A DNA stretch of 61,344 nucleotides from Burkholderiales bacterium (lineage in GTDB: Bacteria > Pseudomonadota > Gammaproteobacteria > Burkholderiales > Burkholderiaceae_C), in NCBI GenBank assembly GCA_018969975.1, contig JAGWXI010000005.1:1-61344 (forward strand). The letters are read 5' to 3'. The position numbers were made by a program, and so were the translations under genes. This document shows positions 11,503 to 40,260 of the stretch, in pieces; within the stretch, counting starts at the first letter, position 1, and every line of letters starts with the position of its first letter. The notes beneath the pieces were generated by a model. That model searched no databases, was not told where the DNA came from, and saw nothing but the letters and a program-made list of their open reading frames with translations.

Positions 11503-12924
11503 TCATAGCACCTCATCGCGCAGGTGGTACCAGTGGTATAAAAAACGTTGACCAAAGCGACGAAAGGGCGCAAATCCACGTGAGCGCACCAGGTTCATCA
11601 CATTCGGGTATTGGAGCTCCGAGTTGTAGATTGGCAAATCGAACATCGACAGTGACTGACCGGCCACGCGTTGCGCCATGCGGCGACCAGCGTGGGCTGA
11701 GAAGGAGACACCATTGCCACCGTAACCTAAAGCGTAAAACACTTGGGAGCTGGGATCGGGCTGCACGATGCGCGGCATCATGTCGTGGCTGACATCGACC
11801 CAACCCCACCAAGAATGTTCGATATCAATGCCTTTAAGGGCCGGGAATTTACGATGCAGGCCGTCGATCAGCTTAGATAAATGCACGGGGTTGGATGCAT
11901 CGGCCCCGGTGATCGCACTGCGGCTACCCATCTGCACTCGGTTGTCGGGCAGGCGACGGTAATAAAAGCGAAGCGTTCGGGTGTCGGTAATGATTTCGGT
12001 GGTCTTGAATTGGGTGACACTGAGCTCGGCCTCGGTCAGCGGTCGCGTGACCAAGGAGTTCGAAAGAATGGGCATGATCTTGGAGTCCAGTCTTGAATAC
12101 ATGCCGTTACTTGTGTAGCCACCGGTAGCAAAGGCTACGGTACGCGCACGCACTGTGCCCCCGGGGGTTTGCAGATGGTGCACACCATTGACAGTATGCA
12201 TACCCAGCACCGGGCTGCTGGGATGCACTTTCGCACCCAGCTCCCGCGCTTTGCGCAAGTAAGCAAAGGCCAGCTTCAGTGGATGTACCCCAATGCCATC
12301 AGGCTCATGCAAAGCGCCGTAGGTTTCAGCGTCGTTGACGTATTGGTAACGCACTTCTTGGGCTGAGAGCATGCGGGCGTCGTAGCCAAAAACTTCACGC
12401 ATGGTCTTGGCCTCGTTTTGCAAGAAGGCCATCTTCTTTTCGCGGTGCGCAATGTAGAGATGGCCGCCATGTTGGGGCTCACACTCTGGAAATTCGTCGA
12501 CCAAGTGTTTGAAAGTTTCAAAGCCCTCTCTTATTTCAGCATCGAGGCGCAGCGCTGTGGCTTTACCCCAGCGTTCGATCCACTGGGAACGGTAGAGTCT
12601 GCCGCTGGCATTTTGGCCTTGGCCTCCGTTTCGACTGGTGCAGCCCCAGGCGGCTTGGTTGGCTTCAAGCACTACGGCCTTGATGCCGTGCTCACGCGCC
12701 AAAAATAGCGCTGTGCACAAGCCTGTAAACCCCGATCCAACAATGGCCACATCTACATCCATGTCAGCACTGACAGGCCCATCGTCGCTTGGCGGTTGGC
12801 CTGCAGATGCCACCCAGTAGGTGGGAGCGTAATCGCGTCCGTGTCCAGGATGACGGTCTACCAAGGGGTCGTAGTGGGGATCGTAGGTGCTCAAGGGTTT
12901 GGTCTCAGCGATATGGATAGCCAT
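11503..12924 (-). CDS. tauY: Taurine dehydrogenase, large FAD subunit (TauY-like)
   Basis: A 473-residue DAO-family flavoprotein. It has an FAD-binding VAIVGSGFTGLCTALFLA near residue 58, an ASGR/GGQ region, and a C-terminal ALGYGGNGVSFSAHAGR motif. Sequence alone would say gamma-glutamylputrescine oxidase or D-amino-acid dehydrogenase. Context decides: the order tauA-tauB-tauC-(NTF2-like)-(DAO-like) is that of tauABCXY in Paracoccus pantotrophus, where TauXY oxidises taurine to sulfoacetaldehyde and ammonia with a cytochrome acceptor. I start at the ATG at 12924; the frame extends upstream to 13104, but only through the tauX gene. No signal peptide is apparent, so it probably acts on the cytoplasmic side. 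Confidence 0.82.
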   Translation of the reverse strand: MAIHIAETKPLSTYDPHYDPLVDRHPGHGRDYAPTYWVASAGQPPSDDGPVSADMDVDVAIVGSGFTGLCTALFLAREHGIKAVVLEANQAAWGCTSRNGGQGQNASGRLYRSQWIERWGKATALRLDAEIREGFETFKHLVDEFPECEPQHGGHLYIAHREKKMAFLQNEAKTMREVFGYDARMLSAQEVRYQYVNDAETYGALHEPDGIGVHPLKLAFAYLRKARELGAKVHPSSPVLGMHTVNGVHHLQTPGGTVRARTVAFATGGYTSNGMYSRLDSKIMPILSNSLVTRPLTEAELSVTQFKTTEIITDTRTLRFYYRRLPDNRVQMGSRSAITGADASNPVHLSKLIDGLHRKFPALKGIDIEHSWWGWVDVSHDMMPRIVQPDPSSQVFYALGYGGNGVSFSAHAGRRMAQRVAGQSLSMFDLPIYNSELQYPNVMNLVRSRGFAPFRRFGQRFLYHWYHLRDEVL

Positions 12925-12940
12925 GTTCTTTCTGTTGGAA

Positions 12941-13354
12941 TTAGTTTGAATGCAAGGTAGGTGGACGGTCTTTGCGGAAGGCGTCCTTGACCGCGATGAG
13001 GCCATCCTTGAATGTGAAGACGTCGACACCATCCATGTCAAATAGCGCACCGTCTGAGGCGCGTGTCGCCACAAAAGTCCATTCCGATAAACCACGGTCG
13101 CCAAAAATCATGTCCGGCCCGCGCGGATGCCAACGCGCGTCGGGAAAGTTAGCAAAGGTGGTTTCAAAAGCCTTCATCACGGCCTCGCGTCCGACTATGG
13201 CGGTACCACCTGCGGTATCGCCCATGGCAGTTCTAAAAACGCAGTCTGCCGTCATCATGCTGACCAATGCTGCGGCGTCATGGCGATTAAAAGCCTCGCC
13301 AAAGGACTTGAGCAGATCTTGGAGTTGGGTTGGTTGGTGATTCATGGCGTGCAC
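12941..13354 (-). CDS. tauX: Taurine dehydrogenase, small NTF2-like subunit (TauX-like)
   Basis: A 137-residue SnoaL/NTF2-fold protein, the usual size for this fold (helix with FGEAFNRHDAAALVSMMTADC, then strands ending in DVFTFKDGLIAVKDAFRK). On its own it would be a generic ketosteroid-isomerase-like protein. Its place between tauC and the flavoprotein gene identifies it as the small subunit TauX, from memory of the tauABCXY order. The GTG at 13354 lies nearer an AAGG than the ATG at 13345; either is possible, a difference of three residues. It follows tauC by 7 bases. Confidence 0.75.
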   Translation of the reverse strand: MHAMNHQPTQLQDLLKSFGEAFNRHDAAALVSMMTADCVFRTAMGDTAGGTAIVGREAVMKAFETTFANFPDARWHPRGPDMIFGDRGLSEWTFVATRASDGALFDMDGVDVFTFKDGLIAVKDAFRKDRPPTLHSN

Positions 13355-13361
13355 TTTTTTG

Positions 13362-14168
13362 TTAAACCTTGCCCTTCCAGGGCACTAATTTTTTCTCGAA
13401 CCAGCGCATCATCAAATCAAAGACGTAAGCAAATACGCCGATGACGATGATGCCCATGATCACGATGTCAGTCCGCAGGAAGTTAGATGCATTGAGCACC
13501 ATCTGGCCCAGACCTACGTTGGCAGCGACCATTTCAGCAGCTACTAGGGTGGTCCAACCAAAGCCGATGGCAATGCGCATGCCCACCAGAATTTCAGGCA
13601 GGGCTGCTGGCAACATGACGTAACGGATCACCTGCCACTGCGAGGCACCCATGGAATATGCAGCGTGAATCTGTTCCTGGCTAGCAGAACGTACACCAGC
13701 ACGGGTTTGCAAGGCCAAAGGTGCAAAACACGAGAGGTAGATCAGTAGCACCTTGGGAACTTCATCGATACCAAACCAAATAATGATCAGGGGCAGGTAA
13801 GCCAATGGCGGCAAAGGTCGATAGAACTCAATAGGCGGATCCATGATGCCGCGTGCCACTCGGCTCACACCCATGGCCACACCTACCGGAATAGCGGTAG
13901 CGCAGGCCAACCAGAAAGCCAGAAACACGCGGACGAAGCTGGCAAACAGGTGCTCAAACAAAGGTTTGTCGTTGGCTTGTCCGGTGGCATAGGCTACAAA
14001 TTGTTCCAGCACTGCCTGCGGTGAAGGCAAGAAGATGGGTTTGATCAGGCCAAGGTTGGTGACAGCAAACCACAACACCAAGATTGCAACAGTTGTAATG
14101 ATGCTGATGTGCGCACTCGGCCCTTCGCCCGGAGTTCGGTAGGAGCTGGTAGTTTGTTGCTGACTCAT
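13362..14168 (-). CDS. tauC: Taurine ABC transporter permease TauC
   Basis: The 268-residue membrane protein of the TauC/SsuC/NrtB group has about six hydrophobic segments. The family coupling loop is SMGASQWQVIRYVMLPAALP, and a PPIEFYRPLPPLAYLPL segment is typical of sulfonate and nitrate permeases. The start overlaps tauB by four bases (ATGA). Together with TauA and TauB it would import taurine. Confidence 0.9.
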   Translation of the reverse strand: MSQQQTTSSYRTPGEGPSAHISIITTVAILVLWFAVTNLGLIKPIFLPSPQAVLEQFVAYATGQANDKPLFEHLFASFVRVFLAFWLACATAIPVGVAMGVSRVARGIMDPPIEFYRPLPPLAYLPLIIIWFGIDEVPKVLLIYLSCFAPLALQTRAGVRSASQEQIHAAYSMGASQWQVIRYVMLPAALPEILVGMRIAIGFGWTTLVAAEMVAANVGLGQMVLNASNFLRTDIVIMGIIVIGVFAYVFDLMMRWFEKKLVPWKGKV

Positions 14169-14959
14169 ACGGTGATTTGCTCAGGCTCACGGTGGTGGAT
14201 GAGGCTGAGAACTTCTTCACGCATGGCAATGAAGTCGCGGTTGGACTTGACCTCGCGGGAGTTGCGTGTATCTAAAAACATTTTTGAAAACGGCAGATCC
14301 TCATAAATGCGCAGGATGCGCCCTGGACTGGGTGTCATGATGACCAAGCGCGTGGCTAGAAAAAGAGCTTCTTCAACCGAATGGGTGATGAAGAAGATCA
14401 TTTTGTTGCTGCGCTTCCAGACATCGATTAGCAATTCTTGAACAGTTTCGCGAGTGAATGCGTCAAGCGCACCCATGGGCTCGTCCATTAGCAACAGGGC
14501 TGGATCATTAGCCAGTGCGCGGGCAATGCCAACCCGTTGTTGCATGCCACCTGAGAGTTCATAAATAGCCTTCTGAGCGTGCTCTTCCAACCCAACTAAT
14601 TTGAGTTTTTCCAAGGCGACGCGTCGCCGCTCAGTCAGGCCAATGCCGCGCATTTTTAGACCCAAAGCTACGTTGTCGATCACGTTGATCCATGGCATAA
14701 GCGCGTGTTTCTGAAAAACCACCCCTCTGTCAGCGCCCGGCCCGCCGATGGCGTGGCCATCTAGTTCAATCTCTCCAGAAGACGGGGGCAAAAAGCCAGC
14801 AAGGCAGTTAAGGAGCGTTGTTTTACCGCAGCCAGATGCACCCAAAGCAACCAAGAAATCGCCACTTTCCATTTCCAAATTCACTTCGGACAGCGCCGTG
14901 ACGACCCCTCCTTTGACGGGATAGCGCACGCACAGATCCTTGAGGCTGAGATGAGACAT
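14165..14959 (-). CDS. tauB: Taurine ABC transporter ATPase TauB
   Basis: A 264-residue ABC ATPase with Walker [12 protein letters not shown]-loop [11 protein letters not shown], signature [15 protein letters not shown], Walker [13 protein letters not shown] and [12 protein letters not shown]. This is the TauB/SsuB/NrtD pattern. Linkage to tauA, tauXY and tauR points to taurine rather than alkanesulfonate or nitrate. The 40-base gap to tauA contains the tauB ribosome binding site and no obvious terminator. Confidence 0.92.
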
Positions 14960-14999
14960 GGGGGAAGTTCTTGGTTACAAAAAAGCTGAAATCAGAGCT

Positions 15000-16001
15000 T
15001 TAGTTGCTGGCTTTGGCGGCAAATTCGGTAGTGATGAATTTGCTGTAGTCTGCTGCCACATCTTTCACGCGTCCCTGCTCCTTGAGGAATTCGGCTGTAT
15101 CTTTGAGGGCCTTAGCTGCTCCACCCCCGAGCCATGTGGCAGAGATCTGTTCCTGCGGGGTGGGAAACTTGTAAAGGGCCATGGATCGTGTCACGTCCTT
15201 GGCATCTGCTTTGGTCCATTTTGCGATGGCTTTAACCTGTGGTGAATCTGTAGTCCACTTCGCGCCATTGGCACGGTACTCAGCATCGGCCTTGGCCAGT
15301 GCCTTGGTCAATGCCAAAACGAAATCTTTGTTTTCTAAAGCCCACTGGCGGTTGACTACAAGACCGTCAAAGGTTGGAAATCCTTTCTTGCCAATCTGTC
15401 CCGAGGTGGTGAGGATGTTGCCGTTAGACTTGATTTTGGTGAGGATCGGATCCCAGATGAAGGCACCGTCAATGTCCCCACGCTCCCAAGCGGCGGCTAT
15501 TTCTGGTGGACGCATGTTCATGACATTAACGTCCGAGGTCTTGAGACCTTCCATTTTGAGAGCCAGCATCAACTGGTAGTGAGAAGTCGATACAAAGGGC
15601 GTGGCCACTTTTTTGCCTTTGAGATCCTTGATGCTTGCAATCCCCTTCTTGACAACCAGAGCCTCCGCATCCGAAATGTCGTCCAAAATCCAAAAAAGTT
15701 GAATGTCCTGGCCTTGGCTAACTGCTGCAGCTACCGGAGAAGAGCCCGCCTCACCGATTTGTACATCACCAGAGGCCATCGCTCGAATCACGTCACCTCC
15801 GCCGCCAAACATACGCCAGTTGATCTTGTAGCCAGTGGCTTTTTCTAACTCACCCGATTCCATTACAACGCGCAGTGGAACCATCATGTCTTGGTGCGCA
15901 AAAGTTACTTCCTTTTTGGCTTGCGCCATAGAGCCAAATGCCATACAGGTAGACGCAACGACCAGCATGCTCTTGGCCATTTTTGTGATGGATAGTTTCA
16001 T
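15000..16001 (-). CDS. tauA: Taurine-binding periplasmic protein TauA
   Basis: The 333-residue protein has a Sec signal peptide (MKLSITKMAKSMLVV, cleavage near AQAKKEV) followed by an NMT1/SsuA-type binding domain. Family features include an early HQDMMVPLRVVMESG segment, IGEAGSSPVAAAVSQG and WERGDIDGAFIWDP. The start is fixed by AGGAG eight bases before the ATG at 16001. It is first of the operon tauABCXY and is read divergently from tauR, the usual taurine-dissimilation arrangement. Expression is probably switched on by TauR acting at the direct repeats in the intergenic region. Confidence 0.9.
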   Translation of the reverse strand: MKLSITKMAKSMLVVASTCMAFGSMAQAKKEVTFAHQDMMVPLRVVMESGELEKATGYKINWRMFGGGGDVIRAMASGDVQIGEAGSSPVAAAVSQGQDIQLFWILDDISDAEALVVKKGIASIKDLKGKKVATPFVSTSHYQLMLALKMEGLKTSDVNVMNMRPPEIAAAWERGDIDGAFIWDPILTKIKSNGNILTTSGQIGKKGFPTFDGLVVNRQWALENKDFVLALTKALAKADAEYRANGAKWTTDSPQVKAIAKWTKADAKDVTRSMALYKFPTPQEQISATWLGGGAAKALKDTAEFLKEQGRVKDVAADYSKFITTEFAAKASN

Positions 16002-16147: not shown

Positions 16148-16179
16148 TGCCCAAACAAGGGTAATTGCTTAGGAGGTTT

Positions 16180-17673
16180 ATGACGCGTTCTCAACTCTCC
16201 ATGTGGAAGACTTTGTTTCAGCAGCATCTCTCGCCAGAGCCTACATTGCAGGGTCGCTTGCGAACCATGGTGGTGCGTGCCATTTTGGACGGTGTCCTGG
16301 GGCCCGGAACCATATTGCCATCCTCACGCAAGCTGGCCGCCTTGTTAAAGATTAGTCGCAACACCGTCACGTTGGTCTACCAGCACTTGGCAGATCAGGC
16401 CTACATCGAGGTTAAACCGCGCAGCGGCTATATGGTCTCTGCAAATGCTGCGCCCAAGCTGGAAAAAGAAGAGTGCGTCAGCAATCAACAAAACGCACCT
16501 AACTGGGATCAGCGACTCCCCAGAAAACTGTGGACCTTGCCCAATATCCGAAAGCCCACCAACTGGCAGGATTACCCCTATCCGTTCATTTATGGTCAGT
16601 TCGATGCAGCGCTGTTTCCATCCCGCGAGTGGCGTGAATGCGTTACCCAGGCTTTGCGAGCCACTGCAGTGCGTGACTGGGCTTGTGACCGGATTGACCA
16701 AGACGACCCGCAACTCATTGAGCAGGTACAACAGCGTATCTTGCCAGCGCGTGGTATTTGGGCAAGCAAGGAAGAAATACTAATCACCGCGGGCGCACAG
16801 CAGGCCAATTTCATACTTTCCGAAGTGCTTTTGGGTGCAAACACTGTGCTGGGTTTGGAAGAACCAGGTTATCCGGATGTGCGCAATATTTTTTCATCGC
16901 ATGGTGCGGTTATCAAACCGCTCAAACTCGATGCCGATGGCATAGATCTGGGCAACCACTTCAAGGGGTGTGACTATGTCTACGTTACGCCTAGTCACCA
17001 ATGCCCTACCACCATAGCAATGACTCAACAAAGACGTTTTGATCTGTTGGAGGTGGCCACGCGGAATGACTTTGTCATCATCGAAGACGATTACGACAGC
17101 GAACTCAATTTTGTGAGCGAACCCTCGCGTGCGATCAAAAGCCTTGACAAGGATGGGCGGGTCATTTACGTAGGCAGTCTTTCCAAAACCGTTGCACCCG
17201 GTTTACGAGTGGGTTTCATGGTGGCGGACCCAGCACTGATTCGCGAGGCGCGGGCTTCTAGGCGATTGATGATGCGCCATCCTCCCACCAACAATGAACG
17301 GGCGCTGGCCTTATTCTTATCTCTGGGGCACCACGATATGCTGATACGCCGTCTGACAAAGGCCTACGACCAACGCCTAGCCCTATTGGGTGAAGCGGTT
17401 CGTCGCTACCTGCCTCAGTGGCGTTTTCAAGCGCCCAATGGTGGTTCAGCCCTGTGGTTACAAGCGCCAAAGGGTACTTCGGTAGACCGCTTGGCCGAAG
17501 TTGCACTGGAGGCAGGAGTGGTTATCGAGGCCGGTAGTATTTTTTTCAGCAAACCTAAGAGCGCCTTCGCACAGCGCCATGCGCGCTTAGGGGTGGCGTC
17601 CATACCGCAGACCCACATTGAGGATGGCATCCGCCTGCTGGCCGACACGCACAAGCGCAATTTGCACTTATGA
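16180..17673 (+). CDS. tauR: MocR/GntR-type transcriptional regulator TauR
   Basis: The 497-residue fusion protein has an N-terminal GntR winged helix (about 1-80; SSRKLAALLKISRNTVTLVYQHL). An aminotransferase class I-like domain follows, with the PLP lysine K336 (SLSKTVAPGLRVGF) and EDDYDSEL, the MocR layout. AGGAGG just before the ATG at 16180 fixes the start; an in-frame TTG at 16165 is less likely. In alphaproteobacteria TauR activates taurine genes when taurine forms an adduct with PLP. Here it faces tauA across 178 bases with two direct repeats. Its 3' end overlaps the convergent SulP gene by 6 bases. Confidence 0.9.
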   Translation: MTRSQLSMWKTLFQQHLSPEPTLQGRLRTMVVRAILDGVLGPGTILPSSRKLAALLKISRNTVTLVYQHLADQAYIEVKPRSGYMVSANAAPKLEKEECVSNQQNAPNWDQRLPRKLWTLPNIRKPTNWQDYPYPFIYGQFDAALFPSREWRECVTQALRATAVRDWACDRIDQDDPQLIEQVQQRILPARGIWASKEEILITAGAQQANFILSEVLLGANTVLGLEEPGYPDVRNIFSSHGAVIKPLKLDADGIDLGNHFKGCDYVYVTPSHQCPTTIAMTQQRRFDLLEVATRNDFVIIEDDYDSELNFVSEPSRAIKSLDKDGRVIYVGSLSKTVAPGLRVGFMVADPALIREARASRRLMMRHPPTNNERALALFLSLGHHDMLIRRLTKAYDQRLALLGEAVRRYLPQWRFQAPNGGSALWLQAPKGTSVDRLAEVALEAGVVIEAGSIFFSKPKSAFAQRHARLGVASIPQTHIEDGIRLLADTHKRNLHL

Positions 17674-19416
17674 CTTGCAGGGCTGAAAAACCAATTGGGT
17701 GCATTGTGCGCATTGCTGGCTAGAGAGTTGCGCCTTGATGCTTGCAATAACGTCATCACCCAAGGTGAAAAAATGGTTTGCGCCAATCTCCTCATAGACA
17801 CCACTTCGCTTGAGCGTCTGCAGGGCTTCTTCCTTCATGTGAAAGATGAACAACCCACCCCCCATGGCTTTTCGGCGTCGGGCCTCTTGTGCCAATAGAT
17901 GGGCGCCCGTTAAATCTATGAAATTGATTCCAGAAGCCACTATGAGCAAGTGTCGGTGATCTGGATTGGCCTCATCAATGCCTTGGAGCGCTTCCTGCAA
18001 ATGGTTGACTGCACCAAAAAATAGGGAACCATTGATACGCACGATCTTGAGTTGCGGACAGTCGGGTAGTCCGGTGGCTGCGCTAAATGCTGGCGGGTTT
18101 TGACCGGGCAGTGGCTTGACGTCGTCAAGCCCGGGTTGCGATGTGCGCTTGAGATACATCGCAAGAGAGGATGCCACCCCTATGTAGATGGCAAACTCCA
18201 GCGCCACCGTCAGTGTGGCTACCAGAGTAATCAACAGCACCAGCGTCTCTTGGCGGCTGGCACGGGTGATGTCTCTGATGTGATGAAAGTCAATCAACCC
18301 CCATGCCACCACAAAAAGAATCCCCGCCATCGTCGCCACTGGCAGGTAACGCGCAAGCGGGGCGAGAAACAGCATGATGAGCAACAAAAAAGCTGCAGAG
18401 TAAACCGCAGCCATGGGGGTCATTGCGCCCGCAGCAAAGTTCAGTCCGCTGCGATTGAAGGACCCGCTGCAAGCGTAGCCAGAAAAGAAGCTAGCAACGA
18501 TGTTGGAGAGTCCTTGGCCGACGAACTCTTGGTTGCCGTCGATGCGCTGACCGCTTTTGAGCGCCATGGCGCGAGCAATCGATACCGCCTCCGTCAAGGC
18601 GAGCAAAGCTACTGCTAACGCTATGGGAGCAATCTGGTGCAATGCACTGAGGCTGAAATCGGGGCTGGACAAAGGCGGCAAGCCCACGCGCAGGGTGCCG
18701 ATATTGCTAATACCAGTGTGTTCAACGCCCCAATAGGCGTTGAGAACCGCAGCAAGCACGCTGCCGCTGACCATGCCAACAATCATGTGGGGCATTTGCG
18801 GCCACCAGCGTTTGGTAGCCACACAGGCCAGTACAGTCACAGTGGCTACTAGGAAGATAAAGGGTTGAATATCGCCAAGATGGGTCAACAGTCCATGAAG
18901 TACTACCCAGGTCGAGGAACCTCTGGGGATAGATAAACCAAAGAAATTATTCACCTGACTGATGGCTATCAGCACCGCTGCGCCAGCAGTAAAACCCACC
19001 ACCACGGTATGGGAGACAAAGTTAACCAAACTACCAAGGCGCAAAATACCCAAGGCCAATTGGATAATTCCCGCCAAGAAGGTCAGCGTCAGCACCAGTT
19101 CCACATAGCGCGGACTGCCTGCTTCTGCCAGTGGACTGATGGTGGCAAACACCACAATGGAAATCGCTGTGGTCGGTCCCGACACCAGATGCCATGACGA
19201 GCCCCAAAGGGCTGCCACCACCGCTGGCAGCATCGCCGCATAGAGGCCGAATTCGGGTGGCATACCAGCAATCGTGGCAAAGGCCACGCCTTGCGGTACC
19301 AGAATCAGCCCACCTGTTAGTCCCGCAATCAAGTCGGCGAAGGTGCTTGTGCGGTTGACGCGCGGCCACCAGCGCAAAAAGGGTAACCAGTGGTGCAAGT
19401 CGTTGCGAGTGGCCAT
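17668..19416 (-). CDS. SulP-family anion transporter with STAS domain (candidate sulfate/sulfite exporter)
   Basis: The 582-residue protein has a SulP membrane domain (LIAGLTGGLILVPQGVAFATIAG near the N terminus, many hydrophobic helices) and a C-terminal STAS domain (LKIVRINGSLFFGAVNHL ... VASGINFIDLTGAHLL). The ATG at 19416 overlaps the soeC stop by one base (TGATG), so it is translationally coupled to the sulfite dehydrogenase. An in-frame extension upstream would run inside soeC and is not used. SulP proteins usually import sulfate or bicarbonate. Placed last in xsc-pta-soeABC, export or exchange of sulfate or sulfite made from sulfonates is the natural inference; direction cannot be read from sequence. 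Confidence 0.85.
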   Translation of the reverse strand: MATRNDLHHWLPFLRWWPRVNRTSTFADLIAGLTGGLILVPQGVAFATIAGMPPEFGLYAAMLPAVVAALWGSSWHLVSGPTTAISIVVFATISPLAEAGSPRYVELVLTLTFLAGIIQLALGILRLGSLVNFVSHTVVVGFTAGAAVLIAISQVNNFFGLSIPRGSSTWVVLHGLLTHLGDIQPFIFLVATVTVLACVATKRWWPQMPHMIVGMVSGSVLAAVLNAYWGVEHTGISNIGTLRVGLPPLSSPDFSLSALHQIAPIALAVALLALTEAVSIARAMALKSGQRIDGNQEFVGQGLSNIVASFFSGYACSGSFNRSGLNFAAGAMTPMAAVYSAAFLLLIMLFLAPLARYLPVATMAGILFVVAWGLIDFHHIRDITRASRQETLVLLITLVATLTVALEFAIYIGVASSLAMYLKRTSQPGLDDVKPLPGQNPPAFSAATGLPDCPQLKIVRINGSLFFGAVNHLQEALQGIDEANPDHRHLLIVASGINFIDLTGAHLLAQEARRRKAMGGGLFIFHMKEEALQTLKRSGVYEEIGANHFFTLGDDVIASIKAQLSSQQCAQCTQLVFQPCKS

Positions 19417-20348: not shown

Positions 20349-20349
20349 A

Positions 20350-27057: not shown

Positions 27058-27090
27058 TCATTTTTTGAAATAATTTGACTCAAAAAATGA
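27058..27090. promoter_or_regulatory. Perfect inverted repeat between xsc and the IclR gene
   Basis: TCATTTTTTGA (27058-27068) and its exact reverse complement TCAAAAAATGA (27080-27090) are separated by 11 bases, centre to centre 22 bases. The element lies 19 bases before the IclR start codon and 95 bases before the xsc start. It is a strong candidate operator for that regulator, although the surrounding DNA is very AT-rich. Confidence 0.5.
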
Positions 27091-27109
27091 AAAAATATAT
27101 GATGCCCAA

Positions 27110-31781: not shown

Positions 31782-31782
31782 A

Positions 31783-33198
31783 ATGACCGCTGAGCAAGAC
31801 GAGGTTTCAATCCTCGTGGGCCAATTGGTGACAAGAGCGCGTGCAGCTCAGCGTATGGCTGAGGGTTACGACCAAGCGCGTGTCGACGAACTCGTGGCTG
31901 CAGCAGGTTGGGCCATTCTTGAGCCCGGTCGCAACGAAGCACTGGCTAAGTTCGCAGTGACCGATACTGGAATCGGTAATGTGGCAGATAAGGTGCGCAA
32001 GAACCACCGCAAAACGCTCGGCCTATTGCGCGACTTGCAAGGTGCAAGATCGGTGGGGGTGATTGCGCAAGATTTGGCCAAGGGACTGATAGAGATCGCT
32101 CGCCCTGTTGGGGTAGTCTGCGCCGTCACGCCGTCGACCAATCCGGCGGCAACGCCGGCCAACAAAATTATCAATGCGATCAAGGGGCGCAACGCGGTTA
32201 TCGTTGCACCGTCTCCCAAAGGTTGGGACACAAGCCAACGCCTCATAGGTTTTATTCATGACCAGTTCGAGCGCATTGGTGCACCCCGCGATCTGGTTCA
32301 ACTCTTGCCTTCGCCCGTGAGCAAAGCCGCGACGCTGGAGTTGATGCGCCAATGCGATTTGGTGGTGGCTACTGGCTCACAAGCCAATGTGCGTGCTGCC
32401 TACACCAGTGGCACACCAGCATTTGGGGTGGGTGCCGGCAATGTCGCAGCCATCGTTGATGAGACTGCTGATATCGAGCAAGCTGCGCAACGCATCCTGC
32501 GTTCTAAGACATTTGACAATGCCACCAGTTGCTCTTCAGAAAACAGTCTGGTGCTGATCGACGCTGTTCGGGAGCCCACCATAGCTGCCTTGCTTAAACT
32601 CGGCGCGGTCATGCTCAGCCCACGGGAGAAGGCGCAACTGCAGGCGCTGATGTGGCCCGATGGAAAGCTTTCATCTGATGTCATTGGCCAATCAGCTCAA
32701 GTGGTAGCGCAACGCGCAGGGTTAGCCGAAATTGCTGCTCGCGCTCCAACCATGTTGTTAGTTCAAGAAGATGGTTTTGGATCGCAACACCCGTTTTCGG
32801 GAGAGAAGCTCTGCCCGGTGCTAACGATTTACAGCGCAAAGGATTTTTCTCAAGCAATGCAGATCGTTGAACGAATCTACGCCTACCAGGGCGCTGGCCA
32901 TTCGGTTGGACTGCACAGTGCGCGGCCCGAGCGCGCCTTGGAACTGGGCTTGAAGCTGCCCGTCTCGCGCGTGATCGTTGACCAAGCCCACTGCATAGCC
33001 ACTGGCGGCAGTTTTGACAACGGTTTGCCGTTCTCGTTGTCTATGGGGTGTGGAACTTGGGGCAAGAATAATTTTTCCGACAATATGAACTATCGGCACT
33101 ATCTAAACATCACACGCATTTCGCGTCCGATCCCGGAACGCATGCCAAACGAGCATGAGATTTTCGGCGCCTATTTCGAAAAGTACGGCCAGGCATGA
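31783..33198 (+). CDS. sauS: Sulfoacetaldehyde dehydrogenase (acylating) SauS
   Basis: The 471-residue CoA-acylating aldehyde dehydrogenase belongs to the EutE/AdhE type: VVCAVTPSTNPAATPANKII, GVGAGNVAAIVD and the catalytic cysteine C250 in NATSCSSENS. In Cupriavidus necator SauS reduces sulfoacetyl-CoA to sulfoacetaldehyde with NAD(P)H. The gene overlaps an AMP-forming CoA ligase gene by four bases and is followed by an IclR gene, the sauS-sauT-sauR combination. By sequence alone acetaldehyde or propionaldehyde dehydrogenase would be possible. Closeness to xsc supports the sulfoacetaldehyde role. Confidence 0.85.
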   Translation: MTAEQDEVSILVGQLVTRARAAQRMAEGYDQARVDELVAAAGWAILEPGRNEALAKFAVTDTGIGNVADKVRKNHRKTLGLLRDLQGARSVGVIAQDLAKGLIEIARPVGVVCAVTPSTNPAATPANKIINAIKGRNAVIVAPSPKGWDTSQRLIGFIHDQFERIGAPRDLVQLLPSPVSKAATLELMRQCDLVVATGSQANVRAAYTSGTPAFGVGAGNVAAIVDETADIEQAAQRILRSKTFDNATSCSSENSLVLIDAVREPTIAALLKLGAVMLSPREKAQLQALMWPDGKLSSDVIGQSAQVVAQRAGLAEIAARAPTMLLVQEDGFGSQHPFSGEKLCPVLTIYSAKDFSQAMQIVERIYAYQGAGHSVGLHSARPERALELGLKLPVSRVIVDQAHCIATGGSFDNGLPFSLSMGCGTWGKNNFSDNMNYRHYLNITRISRPIPERMPNEHEIFGAYFEKYGQA

Positions 33199-34685
33199 GT
33201 CATACCGTTCGCGATCTGATTGAGGATCAGGCCTTGGCCCAACCGCAAGCAATTTACGCTACAGACGGCGAGGGTGTCGCTTTAATGGCATATGCCGATC
33301 TCGCGGTTGCTTGCCGCCGTGTCGCAGCGCAACTGCAGTCGCTGGGTTCGCAACCAGGTGACACAGTGTCGCTGGTCATGCCCAACGGTTTGCAGACTCT
33401 GCGCTTGCTGTTGGGCGCGATGCACGGCGGATGGTGTGTCAATCCCATCAACCTTCTGTCCAGTGTTGAGCAGATGCGCTATGTGGTAGAGCACTCCGAT
33501 TGCAAAGTAGTGGTGGCTAGCCATGAGTGGGAACAGCCGATGCGCGAATTATTGGTAGGCATCGAACGCAAGATCTCCCTTTGGATTTGCTCGCCCGATG
33601 GCGATGAACTGACTGCGCTCGAGGCGCACACTGCGTCGCCCGAACCCAGGACACTAGCGCTTCTGATGTACACCTCCGGTACCACTGGGCGCCCCAAGGG
33701 AGTGATGCTGACGCAGGCCAACCTCGTAGCCAACGCGAAGGCTATCAGTGCTGAGCATGCGTTTAGTCCGAATGACCGCGTGCTGGCTGTACTGCCGCTC
33801 TACCACATCAATGCCTTTGCTGTGACCATGCTTGCACCGTTAGCGCACGGCGGCAGTCTGGCGATGCCGCCTAAGTTTTCTGCCGCGCGCTTCTGGGAGC
33901 AAGCTATTGGATGCGCTTGCACTTGGATCAATGTGGTGCCAACCATGATTTCTTACTTGCTAGAAGGGGAGTCACCCACGCGCGAGAGCATGGCGCGCAT
34001 TCGCTTTTGCCGCTCGGCTTCGGCCGCGCTGCCGCCTGAGCACTTGCGCGCCTTTGAGAACAAGTTTGGCATCGGTATTGTTGAGACCATGGGTCTGACT
34101 GAAACTGTGGCGCCTTCTTTCTCCAACCCCATGGAGACGGCTCAACGCAAGCTAGGGTCAGTTGGTCGTGCCTCTGGTTGCGAGGCACGTGTGATCGACG
34201 CCGACTTGCAATCAGTGCCTGATGGCCAGACTGGCGAGTTAGCGATTTGCGGACCCAACGTCATGCACGGCTATTACAAGAACGAGGAAGCTACCCGTGC
34301 CGCTTTCACACCTGATGGCTGGCTGCGTACGGGTGATCTTGGTTTTCGAGATAGCGACGGATTTTTCTTTGTTACCGGACGCATTAAGGAACTGATCATC
34401 AAGGGAGGTGAGAATATTGCGCCACGCGAGATTGACGAGGCTTTGTTACAGCACCCGTGCGTGCTCGACGCAGCGGCAGTAGGTATTGCCGACCGCCACT
34501 ATGGGCAGGAGATCATGGCCTGCATCGTGCTGCGTCCCGGCAATGAGCCCGACGAAGCCGCGCTGCGCGATTTCTGCCTTCTCCGATTGGGGCGCTACAA
34601 GACACCCAAAGTGTTTCGCTTCGTCGACGAATTACCGCGTGGACCCTCGGGCAAGGTGCAGCGGCTTAAATTATTAGATAGCTGA
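33195..34685 (+). CDS. sauT: Sulfoacetate-CoA ligase SauT
   Basis: A 496-residue acyl-CoA synthetase of the AMP-forming superfamily, with YTSGTTGRPKG (159-169), GLTETVAPS, WLRTGDLGFRDSDGFF, GGENIAPREIDE and the C-terminal catalytic lysine in GPSGKVQRLKLL. SauT activates sulfoacetate with ATP and CoA to sulfoacetyl-CoA for SauS. The ATG overlaps the sauS stop (ATGA). The sauU major-facilitator transporter of Cupriavidus is not here; the Bug receptor or the TRAP system may stand in for it. The ligase fold is certain and substrate assignment rests on context. Confidence 0.84.
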   Translation: MSHTVRDLIEDQALAQPQAIYATDGEGVALMAYADLAVACRRVAAQLQSLGSQPGDTVSLVMPNGLQTLRLLLGAMHGGWCVNPINLLSSVEQMRYVVEHSDCKVVVASHEWEQPMRELLVGIERKISLWICSPDGDELTALEAHTASPEPRTLALLMYTSGTTGRPKGVMLTQANLVANAKAISAEHAFSPNDRVLAVLPLYHINAFAVTMLAPLAHGGSLAMPPKFSAARFWEQAIGCACTWINVVPTMISYLLEGESPTRESMARIRFCRSASAALPPEHLRAFENKFGIGIVETMGLTETVAPSFSNPMETAQRKLGSVGRASGCEARVIDADLQSVPDGQTGELAICGPNVMHGYYKNEEATRAAFTPDGWLRTGDLGFRDSDGFFFVTGRIKELIIKGGENIAPREIDEALLQHPCVLDAAAVGIADRHYGQEIMACIVLRPGNEPDEAALRDFCLLRLGRYKTPKVFRFVDELPRGPSGKVQRLKLLDS

Positions 34686-34686
34686 C

Positions 34687-35457
34687 TCATAACAAAGAGC
34701 GCATTCTTTTTGCTGCGGCGCGCAGCGCCGGTAGCCTTGCCATTGCCTGCTCTTGAGACATGCGTGAGCGTGGAGCATGTACCGCCAGTGCCGCACGTAC
34801 CAAGCCCTGTTTGTCACTAACCGGTACCGCCACCGCAATCAGACCTGTGATGAATTCCTCACGATCCACCGAGAAGCCTTGGTTGGAGATTGCATCGCAT
34901 TCCTCTCGCAAAGCGTCCACCGTGGTCAGTGTGCTGTCGGTCATGCGCGTCAGTCGGATGTGCGCAAGTAATTGCTCGCGCTGAGTCTGTGGCATCAGCG
35001 CCAGAAACAGCTTACCGCTCGCGGTGCAGTGCAGTGGCACATGTTCGCCTATGGCAAGCGTCAATCGCCAAGGCCAAGGCGCCTCGACCCGATCTAAATA
35101 GAGTACCGATGCGCCGTCTAGTGTGGTCAGGTTGCAGGTTTCGCCTACCTGATTCACCAGTTCGGTCAGGACTTCGTGACGCAGACCGCGCACGGTGTCG
35201 TGGTTCAGGGTATTGAAAGCGAGTTGACGCAGAGCTGGACCGACCACGAATGCACCTTCTTCGATATCGCGGCTTATGAAGCCACCGGCCATTAATTTGG
35301 CGCACAAGCGATGTGCTGTTGCCTTGGGTAAATCAAGTTGGGCGGCCAGCTCGGCCAGTGTTAGCGCGCGTCCGGTTGCACTCAGGTGCGCGAGTAGGCG
35401 CAGGCTTCGCTCTGACGAGGATCCTGTCGTCGCTGTGGTTTGAAAGGATTGGGTCAT
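34687..35457 (-). CDS. sauR: IclR-family regulator SauR
   Basis: A 256-residue IclR protein starting at the ATG at 35457 (MTQSFQTTATTGSSSERSLR). It has a winged HTH (LAAQLDLPKATAHRLCAKLMA) and the IclR effector domain (LDRVEAPWPWRLTLAIGEHVPLHCTASGK). An in-frame extension upstream would overlap iseJ and is not used. Convergent with sauT (one-base gap) and divergent from iseJ, it is suited to regulate both sulfoacetate and isethionate genes. Cupriavidus sauRSTU also has an IclR-type SauR. A 15-bp palindrome just upstream is its likely operator. Confidence 0.82.
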   Translation of the reverse strand: MTQSFQTTATTGSSSERSLRLLAHLSATGRALTLAELAAQLDLPKATAHRLCAKLMAGGFISRDIEEGAFVVGPALRQLAFNTLNHDTVRGLRHEVLTELVNQVGETCNLTTLDGASVLYLDRVEAPWPWRLTLAIGEHVPLHCTASGKLFLALMPQTQREQLLAHIRLTRMTDSTLTTVDALREECDAISNQGFSVDREEFITGLIAVAVPVSDKQGLVRAALAVHAPRSRMSQEQAMARLPALRAAAKRMRSLL

Positions 35458-35476
35458 ACGGGAAACCTCTAATAAC

Positions 35477-35491
35477 GGAACGTTGCGTTCC
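35477..35491. promoter_or_regulatory. 15-bp palindrome in the sauR-iseJ intergenic region
   Basis: GGAACG-TTG-CGTTCC has two exact six-base arms around a three-base spacer, midway between the divergent starts of sauR (35457) and iseJ (35523). IclR-family proteins commonly bind pseudopalindromes of about 15 bases with GGAA/TTCC-like arms. This is the best candidate SauR site in the window. Confidence 0.62.
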
Positions 35492-35522
35492 ATAAATTTT
35501 AAAACTAAACTGGCCTTACACC

Positions 35523-37136
35523 ATGCAACAAAACACTGAATTTGACTATATTGTCGTTGGCGCAGGATCTGCGGGTTGCGTGCTGGCTGGTCGTCTGAGC
35601 GAAGACCCGTCGGTACGCGTACTGCTTTTAGAGGCTGGCCCACCCGACAGATCGATCTGGATCCACCTGCCTATTGGTTACGGCAAGACCATGTGGAGTG
35701 ATGCGTATAACTGGCGTTTCGAAACTGATCCGCAACCCACTATGAATGGAAGGCGCATCTACTGGCCCCGAGGTAGAACCTTGGGTGGTTCTAGTTCCAT
35801 CAATGGTCTTATCTACATCCGTGGTCAGCGTGAGGACTACGACCGTTGGGCGGATCTGGGTAACTCAGGTTGGAGTTACAACGAGGTGCTGCCCTATTTC
35901 ATACGATCTGAGTGCAATCAGCTCGGTGCCGGCCCCTTCCATGGCGGCGCTGGACCGCTGAAAGTATCCAATATTGGATCGCAACATGAGTTGATTGAAG
36001 CTTTCATCGCTGGTGCGAAGCAAAACGGGGTACCCCGTAATGAGGACTTCAACGGCGCTGTTCAGGAAGGTGCTGGCTACTACCAGCTCAACACGGATAA
36101 AGGATGGCGTTTTAGCGCGGCAAAGGCTTATCTCAAAGGCGCGCGCGGTAGGCCCAATCTGTGTATCGAAACTGGTGCTTTCGCCAGCGGCCTGATTATG
36201 GAAGGTAGGCGTGCTGTCGGTGTGCGTTACAGACAGGACGGAGTGATCAAAAGCGCACGTTGCTCGGCTGAGGTACTGCTTGCGGCTGGCGCGATTCAGT
36301 CGCCCCAGTTATTGCAACTCTCCGGTATCGGTGCTGGAACATTGCTACAACGGCACGGTATTCCCGTCGTATTGGATGCACCCGGAGTGGGAGAAAACTT
36401 GCAGGACCACTTGCAAATTCGTCTCTCCTATGAGTGCGCTCGTCCGATCACCACCAACGATCAGCTGAATTCTTGGTTTGGTCAGTTCAAGATTGGCCTG
36501 CAATGGCTGCTGTTTCGCACTGGGCCGCTGGCAGTGGGCATCAATCAGGGTGGTTGCTTTATGCGTGCGCTACCACAGGAATCGGTCACACCCGACATCC
36601 AGTTTCATGTAGCCACGCTCTCTGCTGATATGGCGGGAGGCAAAGTGCACCCCTATTCAGGATTCACGCTATCAGTGTGCCAACTCAGGCCCGAGTCGCG
36701 GGGACATATTCGCATCCGCTCGAACGATCCCTTTGCACCACCTGAGATGCAACCGAACTACCTCAGCACCGAACTTGACTGTCGCACCGCTGTGGCTGCT
36801 GTGAAGGCTGCTAGGGCCATAGCCCAGTCAGAGGCAATGCAGCCCTACGTCAAGCGCGAAGTCAAGCCAGGGCCGCAACTCGATAGTGACGAGCAGTTGC
36901 TTGAGTTTTGCCGTAATAACGGAGCAACCATCTTCCACCCGAGTGGTACTTGCAAGATGGGCACCGATGCGATGGCGGTGCTCGATGAGCGGCTTCGCGT
37001 GCGCGGGGCAGCTGGGCTGCGTGTGGTGGATTGCTCTGCCATGCCCACACTGGTTTCGGGCAATACCAATGCACCGGCAATCATGATGGCAGAAAAGGCC
37101 GTGGACATGATCCGCGAGGATGCTGTTAGAGGATAA
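35523..37136 (+). CDS. iseJ: GMC-family FAD oxidoreductase, probable isethionate dehydrogenase IseJ
   Basis: The 537-residue GMC flavoprotein has an N-terminal dinucleotide fold (YIVVGAGSAGCVLAGRLSE), GMC signature 1 (GRTLGGSSSINGLIYIRG), signature 2 (AGAIQSPQLLQLSGIG), active-site H472 (FHPSGTCKMG) and the late SGNTNAPAIMMAEKA. Databases would call it choline or alcohol dehydrogenase. In Cupriavidus necator the isethionate dehydrogenase IseJ is of this family and oxidises isethionate to sulfoacetaldehyde with a cytochrome acceptor. It is followed by a TRAP transporter, as in ise clusters of several bacteria. Choline dehydrogenase is less likely because no betaine genes are present. Confidence 0.78.
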   Translation: MQQNTEFDYIVVGAGSAGCVLAGRLSEDPSVRVLLLEAGPPDRSIWIHLPIGYGKTMWSDAYNWRFETDPQPTMNGRRIYWPRGRTLGGSSSINGLIYIRGQREDYDRWADLGNSGWSYNEVLPYFIRSECNQLGAGPFHGGAGPLKVSNIGSQHELIEAFIAGAKQNGVPRNEDFNGAVQEGAGYYQLNTDKGWRFSAAKAYLKGARGRPNLCIETGAFASGLIMEGRRAVGVRYRQDGVIKSARCSAEVLLAAGAIQSPQLLQLSGIGAGTLLQRHGIPVVLDAPGVGENLQDHLQIRLSYECARPITTNDQLNSWFGQFKIGLQWLLFRTGPLAVGINQGGCFMRALPQESVTPDIQFHVATLSADMAGGKVHPYSGFTLSVCQLRPESRGHIRIRSNDPFAPPEMQPNYLSTELDCRTAVAAVKAARAIAQSEAMQPYVKREVKPGPQLDSDEQLLEFCRNNGATIFHPSGTCKMGTDAMAVLDERLRVRGAAGLRVVDCSAMPTLVSGNTNAPAIMMAEKAVDMIREDAVRG

Positions 37137-37219
37137 GAAATTCAAGAGCGTGAGTGGTGGAGCCTAGGCAATTTCGTCTTTGGCTTCGTTGTTTGATGAC
37201 ATCAACTGAGGAGAGAGCA

Positions 37220-38326
37220 ATGATGAAAATAAGCAGGCGACTGAGCGTCGCCATCAGCGTCTTGGCGCTGACCGGATATACAGCGCTGGCCCAGGCTCAG
37301 CAGGTGACACGGTTAAAGATCCAGACGGCGGTGCCTACCGCAAGCATCTACTTTGACCTGATGAAGCGCTTTGGCGATAGGGTGGACAAGATGTCGAGTG
37401 GCCGCATCAAAATGGAAATTCTTCCCGATGGAGCTGTGGTCAATGCCTTCGAGATTTTGGACGCAGTGGATAAGGGTGTGGTTGATGGCGGTTTCGCCTG
37501 GACACACTATTGGTCTGGAAAGAACAGCGCTGCTGCGTTGTTCTCTAACCCTGCAGCGGGCGCGGGAACTGGCATGGACCAACTCTCGCACATGGCTTGG
37601 CTGATGCATGGCGGTGGCAATGCGCTGTATGAGAAGCTTTACGCAGAGGGAATCAAGGTCAACATCATGCCTTTCATGATGCAGCCCATGGGCCCTGATC
37701 CCTTTGGCTGGTTCAAGTCGCCGATCACTTCAATCGCCGATATGAAAAAACTCAAATACCGCTCGCCACCTGGACTGACTGGTGAGATTTTCAAAGAAAT
37801 GGGTATCAATGCAGTGGCCATGCCTGGTGGTGAAATCGTGCCAGCAGCGCAACGCGGCGTGATCGATGCAGCGGAGTGGATTGGGCCAGCAGATGACATG
37901 ATCTTGGGCTTTCATACCGTGTTCAAGCACTACTATTTGCAGGGCTTGCACCAGTCTACCGATGTGGGTGAACTGCTCATCAACAAGACCATTTGGAATA
38001 AGTTACCGGCCGACCAAAAGGCGATCATCGAGGGCGCAGTAATGGCAACGATAGCCGAGACCTACACCTTCAATGTGCAACGCAACGCAGTGGCGCTGGA
38101 TAAATTGAAGAAGGACCATAAGGTGGTAGTGCATGACACGCCTAAGGAGTTTTTCCCTGCTTTTATCAAAGCCACCAACGTGGTGTATGACCGCGAGGCA
38201 GGTCGCAATCCTTTATTCAAGGAAGTTCTTGAGTCACAGCGCGCTTTTGCCAAAACGGTGGTTCCATATTGGACCAAGATCAACGGGCTTTACCTCAATT
38301 TAGGGGTTGACTCTCCTAATAAATGA
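37220..38326 (+). CDS. dctP: TRAP transporter solute-binding protein (DctP type, isethionate candidate)
   Basis: The 368-residue receptor of a TRAP transporter has a Sec signal peptide (LSVAISVLALTGYTALAQAQ) and DctP features (MKRFGDRVDKMSSGRIKMEILPDG and a VVPAAQRGVIDAAEWIGP-like segment). The ATG at 37220 is chosen for the GGAG before it; the frame is open further upstream. It sits 83 bases after iseJ. In isethionate clusters the TRAP set is called IseKLM. A DctP7/TakP-like binder of 2-oxo acids would look similar, so the ligand is inferred from context. Confidence 0.85.
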   Translation: MMKISRRLSVAISVLALTGYTALAQAQQVTRLKIQTAVPTASIYFDLMKRFGDRVDKMSSGRIKMEILPDGAVVNAFEILDAVDKGVVDGGFAWTHYWSGKNSAAALFSNPAAGAGTGMDQLSHMAWLMHGGGNALYEKLYAEGIKVNIMPFMMQPMGPDPFGWFKSPITSIADMKKLKYRSPPGLTGEIFKEMGINAVAMPGGEIVPAAQRGVIDAAEWIGPADDMILGFHTVFKHYYLQGLHQSTDVGELLINKTIWNKLPADQKAIIEGAVMATIAETYTFNVQRNAVALDKLKKDHKVVVHDTPKEFFPAFIKATNVVYDREAGRNPLFKEVLESQRAFAKTVVPYWTKINGLYLNLGVDSPNK

Positions 38327-38392
38327 CCCATGTTGCAGGGTGCCGGTATCTAGGTTAGAAGCCGCGGTGCCGGCCGCCCGCGAAAGGATTCT

Positions 38393-38953
38393 ATGGTTCC
38401 CGCAAATTCATCGCTACTTCGCATAGCGCACGCACTAGACCCGATTGCAATCTGGTCTGGGCGTATCACCGCATTTCTCATCGTGCCTATGGTTTTAGGG
38501 CTGAGCTACGAGGTGTGCGCGCGTTATCTTTTTAATTCGCCGACTCTTTGGGCGTACGACATGACCTTCATGCTTTATGGCAGTTTTTTCATGTTAGGGG
38601 CCTCTTACACGCTGCAGCGCAAGGCGCATATCCGAACAGACTCGCTGTATGCCGATTGGTCACCTCGCCAACAAGGTTGGGTGGACGTGGTTTGTTACTT
38701 GGTGATGTTTTTACCATTCGTCGCTGTGTTCCTGTGGACCGGTTGGGGGTACTTTGAAAAATCTTTTGTTACCAGCGAACGGTTTGTTAGCAGCCCATGG
38801 ATGCCGCTGGCTTGGCCTTTCAAGGCGGTCATGCCTCTGACAGGTCTTTTGTTGGCGCTACAAGGCATCTCTGAGTTGTGCAAGAGCCTCCACGCCGCCC
38901 TCAACGGAGAATGGCCGGATGCAATTGCGGTCGAAGAAAGGATATCCACATGA
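38393..38953 (+). CDS. dctQ: TRAP transporter small permease (DctQ type)
   Basis: A 186-residue membrane protein with four hydrophobic segments (starting near FLIVPMVLGLSYEVCARYLF), the DctQ arrangement. GAAAGGA precedes the ATG at 38393. The stop overlaps the dctM start (ATGA, 38950-38953). It belongs to the putative isethionate TRAP system. Confidence 0.88.
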   Translation: MVPANSSLLRIAHALDPIAIWSGRITAFLIVPMVLGLSYEVCARYLFNSPTLWAYDMTFMLYGSFFMLGASYTLQRKAHIRTDSLYADWSPRQQGWVDVVCYLVMFLPFVAVFLWTGWGYFEKSFVTSERFVSSPWMPLAWPFKAVMPLTGLLLALQGISELCKSLHAALNGEWPDAIAVEERIST

Positions 38954-40260
38954 GCCATGAAATCCTAGGCCTTGTAGCCCTCGCGCTGCTGTTTGTCACA
39001 ATTTTTATCGGATTTCCGATCGCTTTTACCCTAGGCGCTATGGCGTTGGGCACGGGTTTCATCGCCCTGGGCCCCGTTGTGTTCGACTTGGCGGTTCTTC
39101 AGACCTTCTCGGTTATGAAGGATACGGTGCTGGCAAGCATTCCCTTTTTCCTTTTCATGGGGTTTTTACTTGAACAGTCATCCATCATGGAGCGCTTGTT
39201 TTCGGGCATCCAGCAGTTGCTGGCTGGTCTGCGCGGATCTTTGTATTTGGCGGTACTGATCACAGCTACCATCTTCGCCGCAGCTACGGGAATCGTGGGT
39301 TCATCGGTGACTCTATTGGGTGTGATGGCCGCCCCCTCGATGATCAAGAGTGGTTACGACGTGAAGATGAGTGCAGGAGTGATCACTGCGGGTGGCACAT
39401 TGGGTATTTTGATTCCACCCTCGGTGATGCTGATCGTGATGGGGCCGGTAGTCGGTGTACCTGCCACTGATCTGTTTGCAGCTGCTGTGATTCCCGGATT
39501 GCTGCTGTCTTCGCTGTTCACTGTCTGGTGCCTTGTGCGTTGCTGGTTCAATCCCGCTTTAGGGCCAGCATTACCTCCAGAAATGCGCCCCACCGAACTT
39601 TGGCCGGTAGTACGTGACCTGCTCATAGGTGTGTTGCCAGTGATCGTGGTGATCATGTCGACGCTGGGTGTGATCCTCTTGGGTGTGGCCACTCCGACCG
39701 ATGCTGGCGCTGTGGGTTGCGCAGCGGTCTTCGTTCTGACGTTGCTTTCGCGCCGTCTGACCTTGGACAAAATCAAGAAATCGGCCTACCAAACGCTTGA
39801 GGTCTCTAGCATGATTTTGATGCTGGTAGCTGCCTCCAACCTGTTTGGTGCAGTTTTCTCGCGCTTGGGCAGTGCTGAGTTTCTAGCTAATTTGCTAATT
39901 AGCTTGTCGTTACCCCCGACGTTAATGCTGATACTTATCCTTGCACTGATTTTCGTGCTAGGTTGGCCGCTTGAATGGGTGCCCATCGTACTGATCGTGG
40001 TGCCCATCGTGCTACCGATCGTGCAAGCTGCAGGCATCGACTTGATTTGGTTCTGCACCTTGGTAGCAGTTACTTTGCAGACAGCTTGGTTGTCTCCGCC
40101 AGTGGCACTGTCAGCCTATTTCCTCAAAGGAGTGGTGCCCCAATGGGAACTCAAGCAAATCTATGCTGGTATGGTCCAGTTCATGATGCTGCAACTAGTA
40201 GGCGTGGGGCTGCTACTGATGTTTCCGCGCCTAGCAACTTGGCTGCCAACTGTGAACTGA
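38950..40260 (+). CDS. dctM: TRAP transporter large permease (DctM type)
   Basis: The 436-residue protein is rich in membrane helices, with DctM landmarks: IPFFLFMGFLLEQSSIMERL, GGTLGILIPPSVMLIVMG, and the late SPPVALSAYFLKGV. I start at the ATG at 38950, coupled to dctQ; the frame extends upstream only inside dctQ. It drives sodium-dependent uptake with the DctP-type receptor. The short gap to the next gene (33 bases) holds no clear terminator. Confidence 0.92.
   Translation: MSHEILGLVALALLFVTIFIGFPIAFTLGAMALGTGFIALGPVVFDLAVLQTFSVMKDTVLASIPFFLFMGFLLEQSSIMERLFSGIQQLLAGLRGSLYLAVLITATIFAAATGIVGSSVTLLGVMAAPSMIKSGYDVKMSAGVITAGGTLGILIPPSVMLIVMGPVVGVPATDLFAAAVIPGLLLSSLFTVWCLVRCWFNPALGPALPPEMRPTELWPVVRDLLIGVLPVIVVIMSTLGVILLGVATPTDAGAVGCAAVFVLTLLSRRLTLDKIKKSAYQTLEVSSMILMLVAASNLFGAVFSRLGSAEFLANLLISLSLPPTLMLILILALIFVLGWPLEWVPIVLIVVPIVLPIVQAAGIDLIWFCTLVAVTLQTAWLSPPVALSAYFLKGVVPQWELKQIYAGMVQFMMLQLVGVGLLLMFPRLATWLPTVN

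Follow-up and report, generated by a model that had tools for sequence, protein, structure and literature searches.

The window analysed here is a 61,344-nucleotide stretch of a Burkholderiales genome (contig JAGWXI010000005.1 of assembly GCA_018969975.1; host genome 2.72 Mb, 167 contigs, 89.4% complete) that carries a block of genes for the breakdown of C2 sulfonates. Within this block, a first-pass annotation had passed over three genes located between an IclR-family regulator and sauS, which encode a CobS-like MoxR/AAA+ ATPase (27922–28890, + strand; PF07728, PF12556), a CobT-like VWA protein with a MIDAS site (28909–30645, + strand; PF11775, PF06213) and a Bug/TctC-type periplasmic binding protein. 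CobS and CobT are normally named as cobaltochelatase subunits. The CobS/CobT-like pair is the most unusual part of the block, and we found it tightly linked, in different genera and under differing gene arrangements, to xsc (25151–26968, − strand), the gene for sulfoacetaldehyde acetyltransferase (Xsc), a thiamine diphosphate (ThDP) enzyme. By analogy with CbbQO on Rubisco, we lean slightly towards the reading that the two proteins act at the Xsc step as a dedicated remodelling pair of the MoxR/VWA type.

The CobS-like protein is an AAA_5 ATPase with Walker A and Walker B motifs and adjoins a VWA protein with a MIDAS motif, as in other MoxR AAA+/VWA pairs. Both proteins align with solved cobaltochelatase subunits, and CobS also shows weak similarity to chains of CbbQ (43 bits) and NorQ (29 bits). 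The scores fall under the equivalog cut-offs, with 499 bits for CobS (TIGR01650, cut-off 558.55) and 317.3 bits for CobT (TIGR01651, cut-off 759.05), and none of ten Xsc-linked CobS proteins sampled passed TIGR01650 (499–532 bits). We then built a CobT tree with a quick method that does not infer a root (93 sequences collected, 90 rows longer than 450 amino acids, 21 near-duplicates dropped and 69 kept; long branches L109, L110 and L172). In this tree, a clade of 41 sequences that includes the window protein was split from 28 canonical rows with an SH-aLRT of 100. For 34 of the 41, xsc was on the same fetched piece; among the other seven, three pieces end at or just before cobS (L004, L028, L063), one CobT gene lies 28 kb from xsc (L157) and three are on a contig different from that of xsc (L105, L107, L109). 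Comparison of Xsc-linked with canonical rows (41 vs 21 for CobT, 40 vs 7 for CobS) showed that the Xsc-linked clade keeps Walker A (GLHGTGKST in the window) and Walker B (FDEYDAG), and that the CobT MIDAS motif reads DCSGSM versus DNSGSM in canonical proteins.

The pair is preceded by the IclR-family gene (27110–27928, + strand), whose stop overlaps the cobS start, and cobS has a GAGGAG ribosome site. With xsc divergent from the IclR gene across 141 bases (26969–27109), this arrangement makes IclR, cobS and cobT look like one transcript opposite xsc. This intergenic region is AT-rich and carries promoter-like sites on both strands; between 26900 and 31000 we counted four such sites versus 2.3 expected from shuffling, a weak excess.

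The association with xsc was examined in overlapping samples (G000 and G128 are common to all three) of the family (200 Burkholderiaceae genomes, 141 genera), the class (274 genomes) and the phylum (299 genomes). In the family, xsc was over cut-off in 23 of 200 genomes and CobT_C matches were found in 24. Dropping three weak matches of 21–22 bits (G024, G079, which has CobN, and G115), none of them in a genome with xsc over cut-off, left 21 strong CobT carriers. All 21 have xsc over cut-off, and the 177 genomes without xsc have no strong CobT (Fisher p 1.8e-26, uncorrected for kinship and therefore overstated, as the genomes are related). One further genome (G104, 76% complete) has a below-cut-off xsc fragment with a frame break at a contig end and no CobT match; counting it in gives 21 of 24. 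A better control than the Fisher test is provided by the genera sampled both with and without xsc (g1, g21, g33, g53, g71, g73, g82, g91, g94 and g98): CobT tracked xsc in all ten, and CobS was present in 10/10 xsc carriers and 0/11 non-carriers. The xsc and CobT_C matches are 2.5–3.2 kb apart in 20 of the 21 carriers. For the 20 carrier loci other than that of the window, we counted genes at up to 9 kb from xsc, which gave cobS in 20, cobT in 19 and an IclR gene in 18; the score limits were our own, and some contigs are cut.

Outside the family, CobT of the Xsc-linked type was found in six sampled genomes (G246, G341, G462, G708, G640 and G705), all of which have xsc, adjoining in three. In the class sample, CobT was detected in 15 genomes, xsc in 16 and both in ten; five of these ten (G250, G292, G388, G412 and G455) have solely canonical CobT by score or tree, and it is not beside xsc. 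In the phylum sample, all six xsc genomes of the window's own class have a divergent CobT (three are in the family), 28 kb away in G708. Beyond the class, presumably in Alphaproteobacteria, each of the 15 genomes with xsc carries canonical CobT, either on contigs other than that of xsc or at a distance of more than 100 kb; this says little, since canonical CobT is common outside the class (83 genomes). A search of a plasmid collection returned 11 records with CobT matches over 80% of the query, seven at 45–51% identity and four at 32–33%. In all seven of the higher range, xsc lies at most 4 kb away (Paraburkholderia phymatum, Burkholderia multivorans, B. arboris, two Cupriavidus, Caballeronia and Photobacterium), and gene order varied among the five of them compared. 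Across genomes and plasmids, the genes are co-directional in G341, convergent in Cupriavidus and B. multivorans, and without an intervening IclR gene in Photobacterium and G640.

The nearly fixed layout within the family, in which the xsc and CobT matches are some 3 kb apart and an IclR gene recurs, would also be expected if the pair travelled with xsc as a cassette through ancestry and transfer, with no functional dependence between them. We consider such hitch-hiking unlikely, because the linkage holds despite varied gene order and the motifs are kept although CobT evolves fast.

Some individual loci deserve mention. On P. phymatum plasmid pBPHY01 (L178), two xsc genes flank cobST, one per side. 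In G246 (L109), cobST and pta lie beside a gene for a dddP-like DMSP lyase (NF043017 over cut-off) and a tauABC-like transporter. G702, in the phylum sample the one genome of the window's class with a divergent CobT and no xsc, was left out of the clade and is not in the tree, as its pair is distant (CobS 34% and CobT 32% identity; TIGR01650 121.5 bits); this pair (L153) lies beside FUSC and MarR genes and represents another MoxR/VWA pair.

As CobS and CobT of the window align with solved cobaltochelatase subunits, the pair could be a normal cobaltochelatase motor that serves cobalamin synthesis and sits in the island by chance. It resembles the CobN-CobS-CobT system in its homologous subunits, gene order, and Walker and MIDAS motifs, and differs from it in the separate CobT clade, the sub-cut-off scores, the linkage to xsc and the usual lack of CobN. 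In the family sample, CobN was over the TIGR02257 cut-off in 19 of 200 genomes among the matches listed, all at E ≤ 1e-200. Five of the 21 strong-CobT carriers are among them, a mild enrichment (Fisher p 0.034). However, the other 16 carriers, including the window genome, show no CobN over cut-off, 14 of the 19 CobN genomes are without strong CobT, and the distribution of the pair follows xsc, so that we regard a cobaltochelatase role as very improbable. Of 19 genomes tested in the class sample, 3 have a CobN-family protein, and among these just G250 was over the CobN cut-off. We did not find a TIGR02257 match over cut-off in the window genome, although at 89.4% completeness a gene may have been missed. 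Its two CobN-like matches to PF02514 turned out to be BchH, encoded next to bchB and bchL; one is truncated by a contig end. The presence of bchB, bchH and bchL (L001 and L002, on contigs C79 and C49) suggests that the organism is possibly an aerobic anoxygenic phototroph. In Caulobacter vibrioides, included as a control genome, we found CobS and CobT and no CobN-family match; canonical CobST may have a role outside vitamin B12 synthesis too.

CbbQO and similar MoxR/VWA pairs each reactivate a single client enzyme. Like the Rubisco activase CbbQ-CbbO and like NorQ-NorD, the pair described here combines a MoxR-type AAA+ protein with a VWA partner beside one candidate client. Unlike in CbbQ-CbbO, the client would be a ThDP enzyme and the adaptor is of the CobT type, not the CbbO type. 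We infer Xsc as the client and reactivation as the action, because Xsc is the one conserved partner, with phosphate acetyltransferase (Pta) as the next candidate. In such a mechanism, the AAA+ ring, aimed via the MIDAS site of the VWA adaptor, would open or remodel Xsc and thereby keep it active. We know of no example of a reactivase for a thiamine enzyme. Somewhat speculatively, the pair might act as a repair motor that opens Xsc and releases a damaged cofactor or an inhibitor held inside, which would make room for fresh ThDP. A chemical reason for such repair would be that sulfite, a product of Xsc, cleaves thiamine (PMC8839250).

Several observations weigh against a motor dedicated to Xsc. 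CobT and CobS are absent from the xsc genomes G017 and G121 of the family and from 6 of the 16 xsc genomes of the class sample, and we found no cobST in the flanks of Polynucleobacter loci or of one Rhodococcus plasmid xsc. Since several xsc genomes lack the pair, Xsc can work without it. In G101, the carrier in which the two matches are not close, cobS is beside xsc and cobT is found next to Bug-sauST-iseJ on a different contig; both genes lie away from the contig ends, and both contigs have room for the missing neighbour. No residue of Xsc tracked cobST, the best one differing in six of eight lineages taken as lacking the pair (Polynucleobacter and Rhodococcus were scored from flanks alone), and no Xsc tails tracking cobST were found. 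Across the 41 loci with all three proteins, the correlation of Xsc and CobT distances was moderate (Spearman 0.46, vs 0.94 for CobS and CobT). In addition, 16 of the 20 carrier loci have a Pta, of one type or another, close to xsc, and contig ends cut short two of the four that do not; Pta is thus nearly as constant a neighbour as the pair. In G246, cobST adjoins a pta of the TIGR00651 type, and xsc is found on a different contig. The xsc genomes without cobST would agree with a reactivase that is useful but not essential, and also with a different client acting in that step.

It is possible, though in our view doubtful, that the pair acts, by remodelling or maturation, on a different pathway protein, with Pta as the first candidate and otherwise the molybdoenzyme SoeABC, one of the dehydrogenases or a transporter. 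This would agree with the recurrence of Pta near xsc, with the position of pta directly before cobS in G341 and G246, and with the fact that MoxR/VWA pairs elsewhere serve metalloenzymes. Xsc, however, is one conserved family, whereas the Pta types differ: the window type occurs in 15 loci, another in L084 and a third, the TIGR00651 type, in G246. G017 also has pta near xsc. The remaining feeder genes are rarer within 9 kb of xsc, with iseJ in 6, soeA in 4, tauY in 3 and sauS in 2 of 22 family loci (the 20 carriers other than the window, plus G017 and G121), under our own score limits and with some contigs cut; apart from cobS, cobT, IclR and pta, no gene tested exceeded 6.

We found no description of Xsc-linked CobS/CobT in the open-access collection searched, and papers on CobS/CobT may describe a CobN-free role. 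A Ruegeria pomeroyi paper matched both subjects through an annotation table and a reference (PMC4334477). If a dedicated role at the Xsc step is correct, a pair usually named for vitamin B12 synthesis would be part of taurine and sulfonate breakdown in these bacteria, vitamin B12 capacity inferred from cobS and cobT alone would be wrong there, and a thiamine enzyme would be added to the clients of MoxR/VWA motors.

The pathway genes themselves are of known kinds. The first-pass annotation had placed gene sets for taurine, isethionate and sulfoacetate around xsc-pta-soeABC-SulP between 11503 and 40260, and all of them were found inside this interval by profile and domain matches. The names Xsc, SauS, TauA and SulP hold by curated cut-offs; SauT, IseJ, TauXY and SoeABC are named from domains and context, and tauR from position. 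Xsc (TIGR03457, 1032.9 bits vs a cut-off of 676.4) and SauS, an acylating sulfoacetaldehyde dehydrogenase (31783–33198, + strand; NF047625, 758.1 vs 600), passed equivalog models. In the taurine transporter tauC-tauB-tauA (13362–16001, − strand), TauA passed TIGR01729 (364.4 vs 304.25 bits), and TauB and TauC had a taurine model as their best match yet stayed under cut-off (322.2 vs 357 and 302.4 vs 342). The SulP anion permease (17668–19524, − strand) passed TIGR00815 (393 vs 380.45 bits), and the Pta-like phosphate acetyltransferase (24196–25140, − strand) was over the NF006045 cut-off. No dedicated model was matched by TauX, TauY, SoeABC or SauT, whose domains and positions fit. The TauX-like protein is a small SnoaL/NTF2-like subunit (12941–13354, − strand; PF12680) and the TauY-like protein an FAD oxidoreductase (11503–12924, − strand; PF01266, DAO); the tauY interval given earlier included an upstream extension, inspection pointing to the ATG at 12924 on the − strand as the likely start. 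The soeC-soeB-soeA genes (19416–24146, − strand) encode a DmsC-like anchor (PF04976), an FeS subunit of the DsrO/DMSO type and a molybdopterin catalytic subunit of a predicted sulfite dehydrogenase, and soe orthologues adjoin xsc in other genomes. The names tauR and IseJ rest on position, since the MocR-type regulator (16165–17673, + strand) passes a PdxR model (NF052282, 340.7 vs 320 bits) and the GMC dehydrogenase (35523–37136, + strand) passes a broad choline dehydrogenase subfamily model (NF002550, 652.2 vs 605 bits), its closest solved chain being a choline dehydrogenase. IseJ is followed by TRAP transporter genes dctP, dctQ and dctM (37154–40260, + strand; profile and domain matches), which accompany iseJ in several relatives. 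The SauT-like protein is an AMP-forming acyl-CoA ligase (33195–34685, + strand; PF00501, PF13193) whose closest solved relatives are oxalate-CoA ligases. In a scan of named genomes for SauS, among the best 80 of 94 confirmed loci, sauT was directly 3′ of sauS in 78 and a Bug/TctC gene directly 5′ in 67; the Bug/TctC protein of the window (about 30786–31781, + strand; PF03401) could be a sulfoacetate receptor. A second IclR-family regulator (34687–35643, − strand; profile match) lies between sauT and iseJ.

A route from C2-sulfonate uptake to sulfate is a fair reading of these gene assignments. Sulfoacetaldehyde would be formed from taurine, probably also from sulfoacetate and isethionate, and possibly from a taurine conjugate, and Xsc would turn it into acetyl phosphate and sulfite; Pta would then form acetyl-CoA and SoeABC would oxidise the sulfite. 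The enzyme set is that of the known C2-sulfonate gene sets (tauABC/XY, xsc-pta, sauRSTU, iseJ, soeABC); here, unlike in those, it forms one block, together with cobST, a Bug gene adjacent to sauS and a module that pairs a CobW-type GTPase with an amidohydrolase. Comamonas testosteroni KF-1, which has xsc, is reported to grow on taurine and not on isethionate or sulfoacetate (PMC3746432).

The single block had been taken as special and as suggestive of an organosulfonate specialist. The first view did not hold, as similar blocks are found in many Variovorax and several Polynucleobacter loci, so that the layout is not exceptional in itself. The specialist reading found no support; two genomes of the same genus are without xsc over cut-off. 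Many Variovorax loci keep the order xsc-IclR-cobST-Bug-sauST-IclR-iseJ; several Polynucleobacter loci, with flanks without cobST, have soeCBA-pta-IclR-Bug-sauST plus iseJ, often with sulP or TRAP genes; and L006 combines the tau, sau, xsc, soe and cobST genes in one locus. Carriers of the cluster include Variovorax paradoxus NBRC 15149 and P. phymatum STM815. The recurrence of the same genes together in relatives indicates that their grouping is not due to chance. The expected co-occurrence with xsc was also seen, as xsc was present in the fetched flanks of 24 of the 46 SauS loci of at least 18 kb.

Beside tauXY, a module between 3299 and 11579, all on the − strand, had likewise been left out of the first-pass annotation. 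It comprises a CobW-family GTPase (3299–4267; PF02492, PF07683), an Amidohydro_3 amidohydrolase (4270–5928; PF07969) and Dpp/Opp-type ABC transporter genes (5957–11579), with an ATPase (5957–6988; domain match), two genes named from position (6985–7995 and 7992–8855), a permease (8852–9829) and a binding protein (9849–11579), the last two by profile match. The GTPase-amidohydrolase pair recurs beside xsc-cobST in L083, L087, L097 and L174 (amidohydrolase 51–85% identity), and oppA/dppB also follow tauXY in L006 and L096. The module may be a fourth feeder that cleaves a taurine conjugate, and the GTPase possibly serves as a metallochaperone for the adjacent amidohydrolase. Just outside the block, another ThDP enzyme, a member of the acetolactate synthase superfamily (41797–43479), lies between LacI-type regulator and SDR genes, and further on (55792–61344) the window carries genes for a urease alpha subunit and a urea ABC transporter (UrtA, UrtB).

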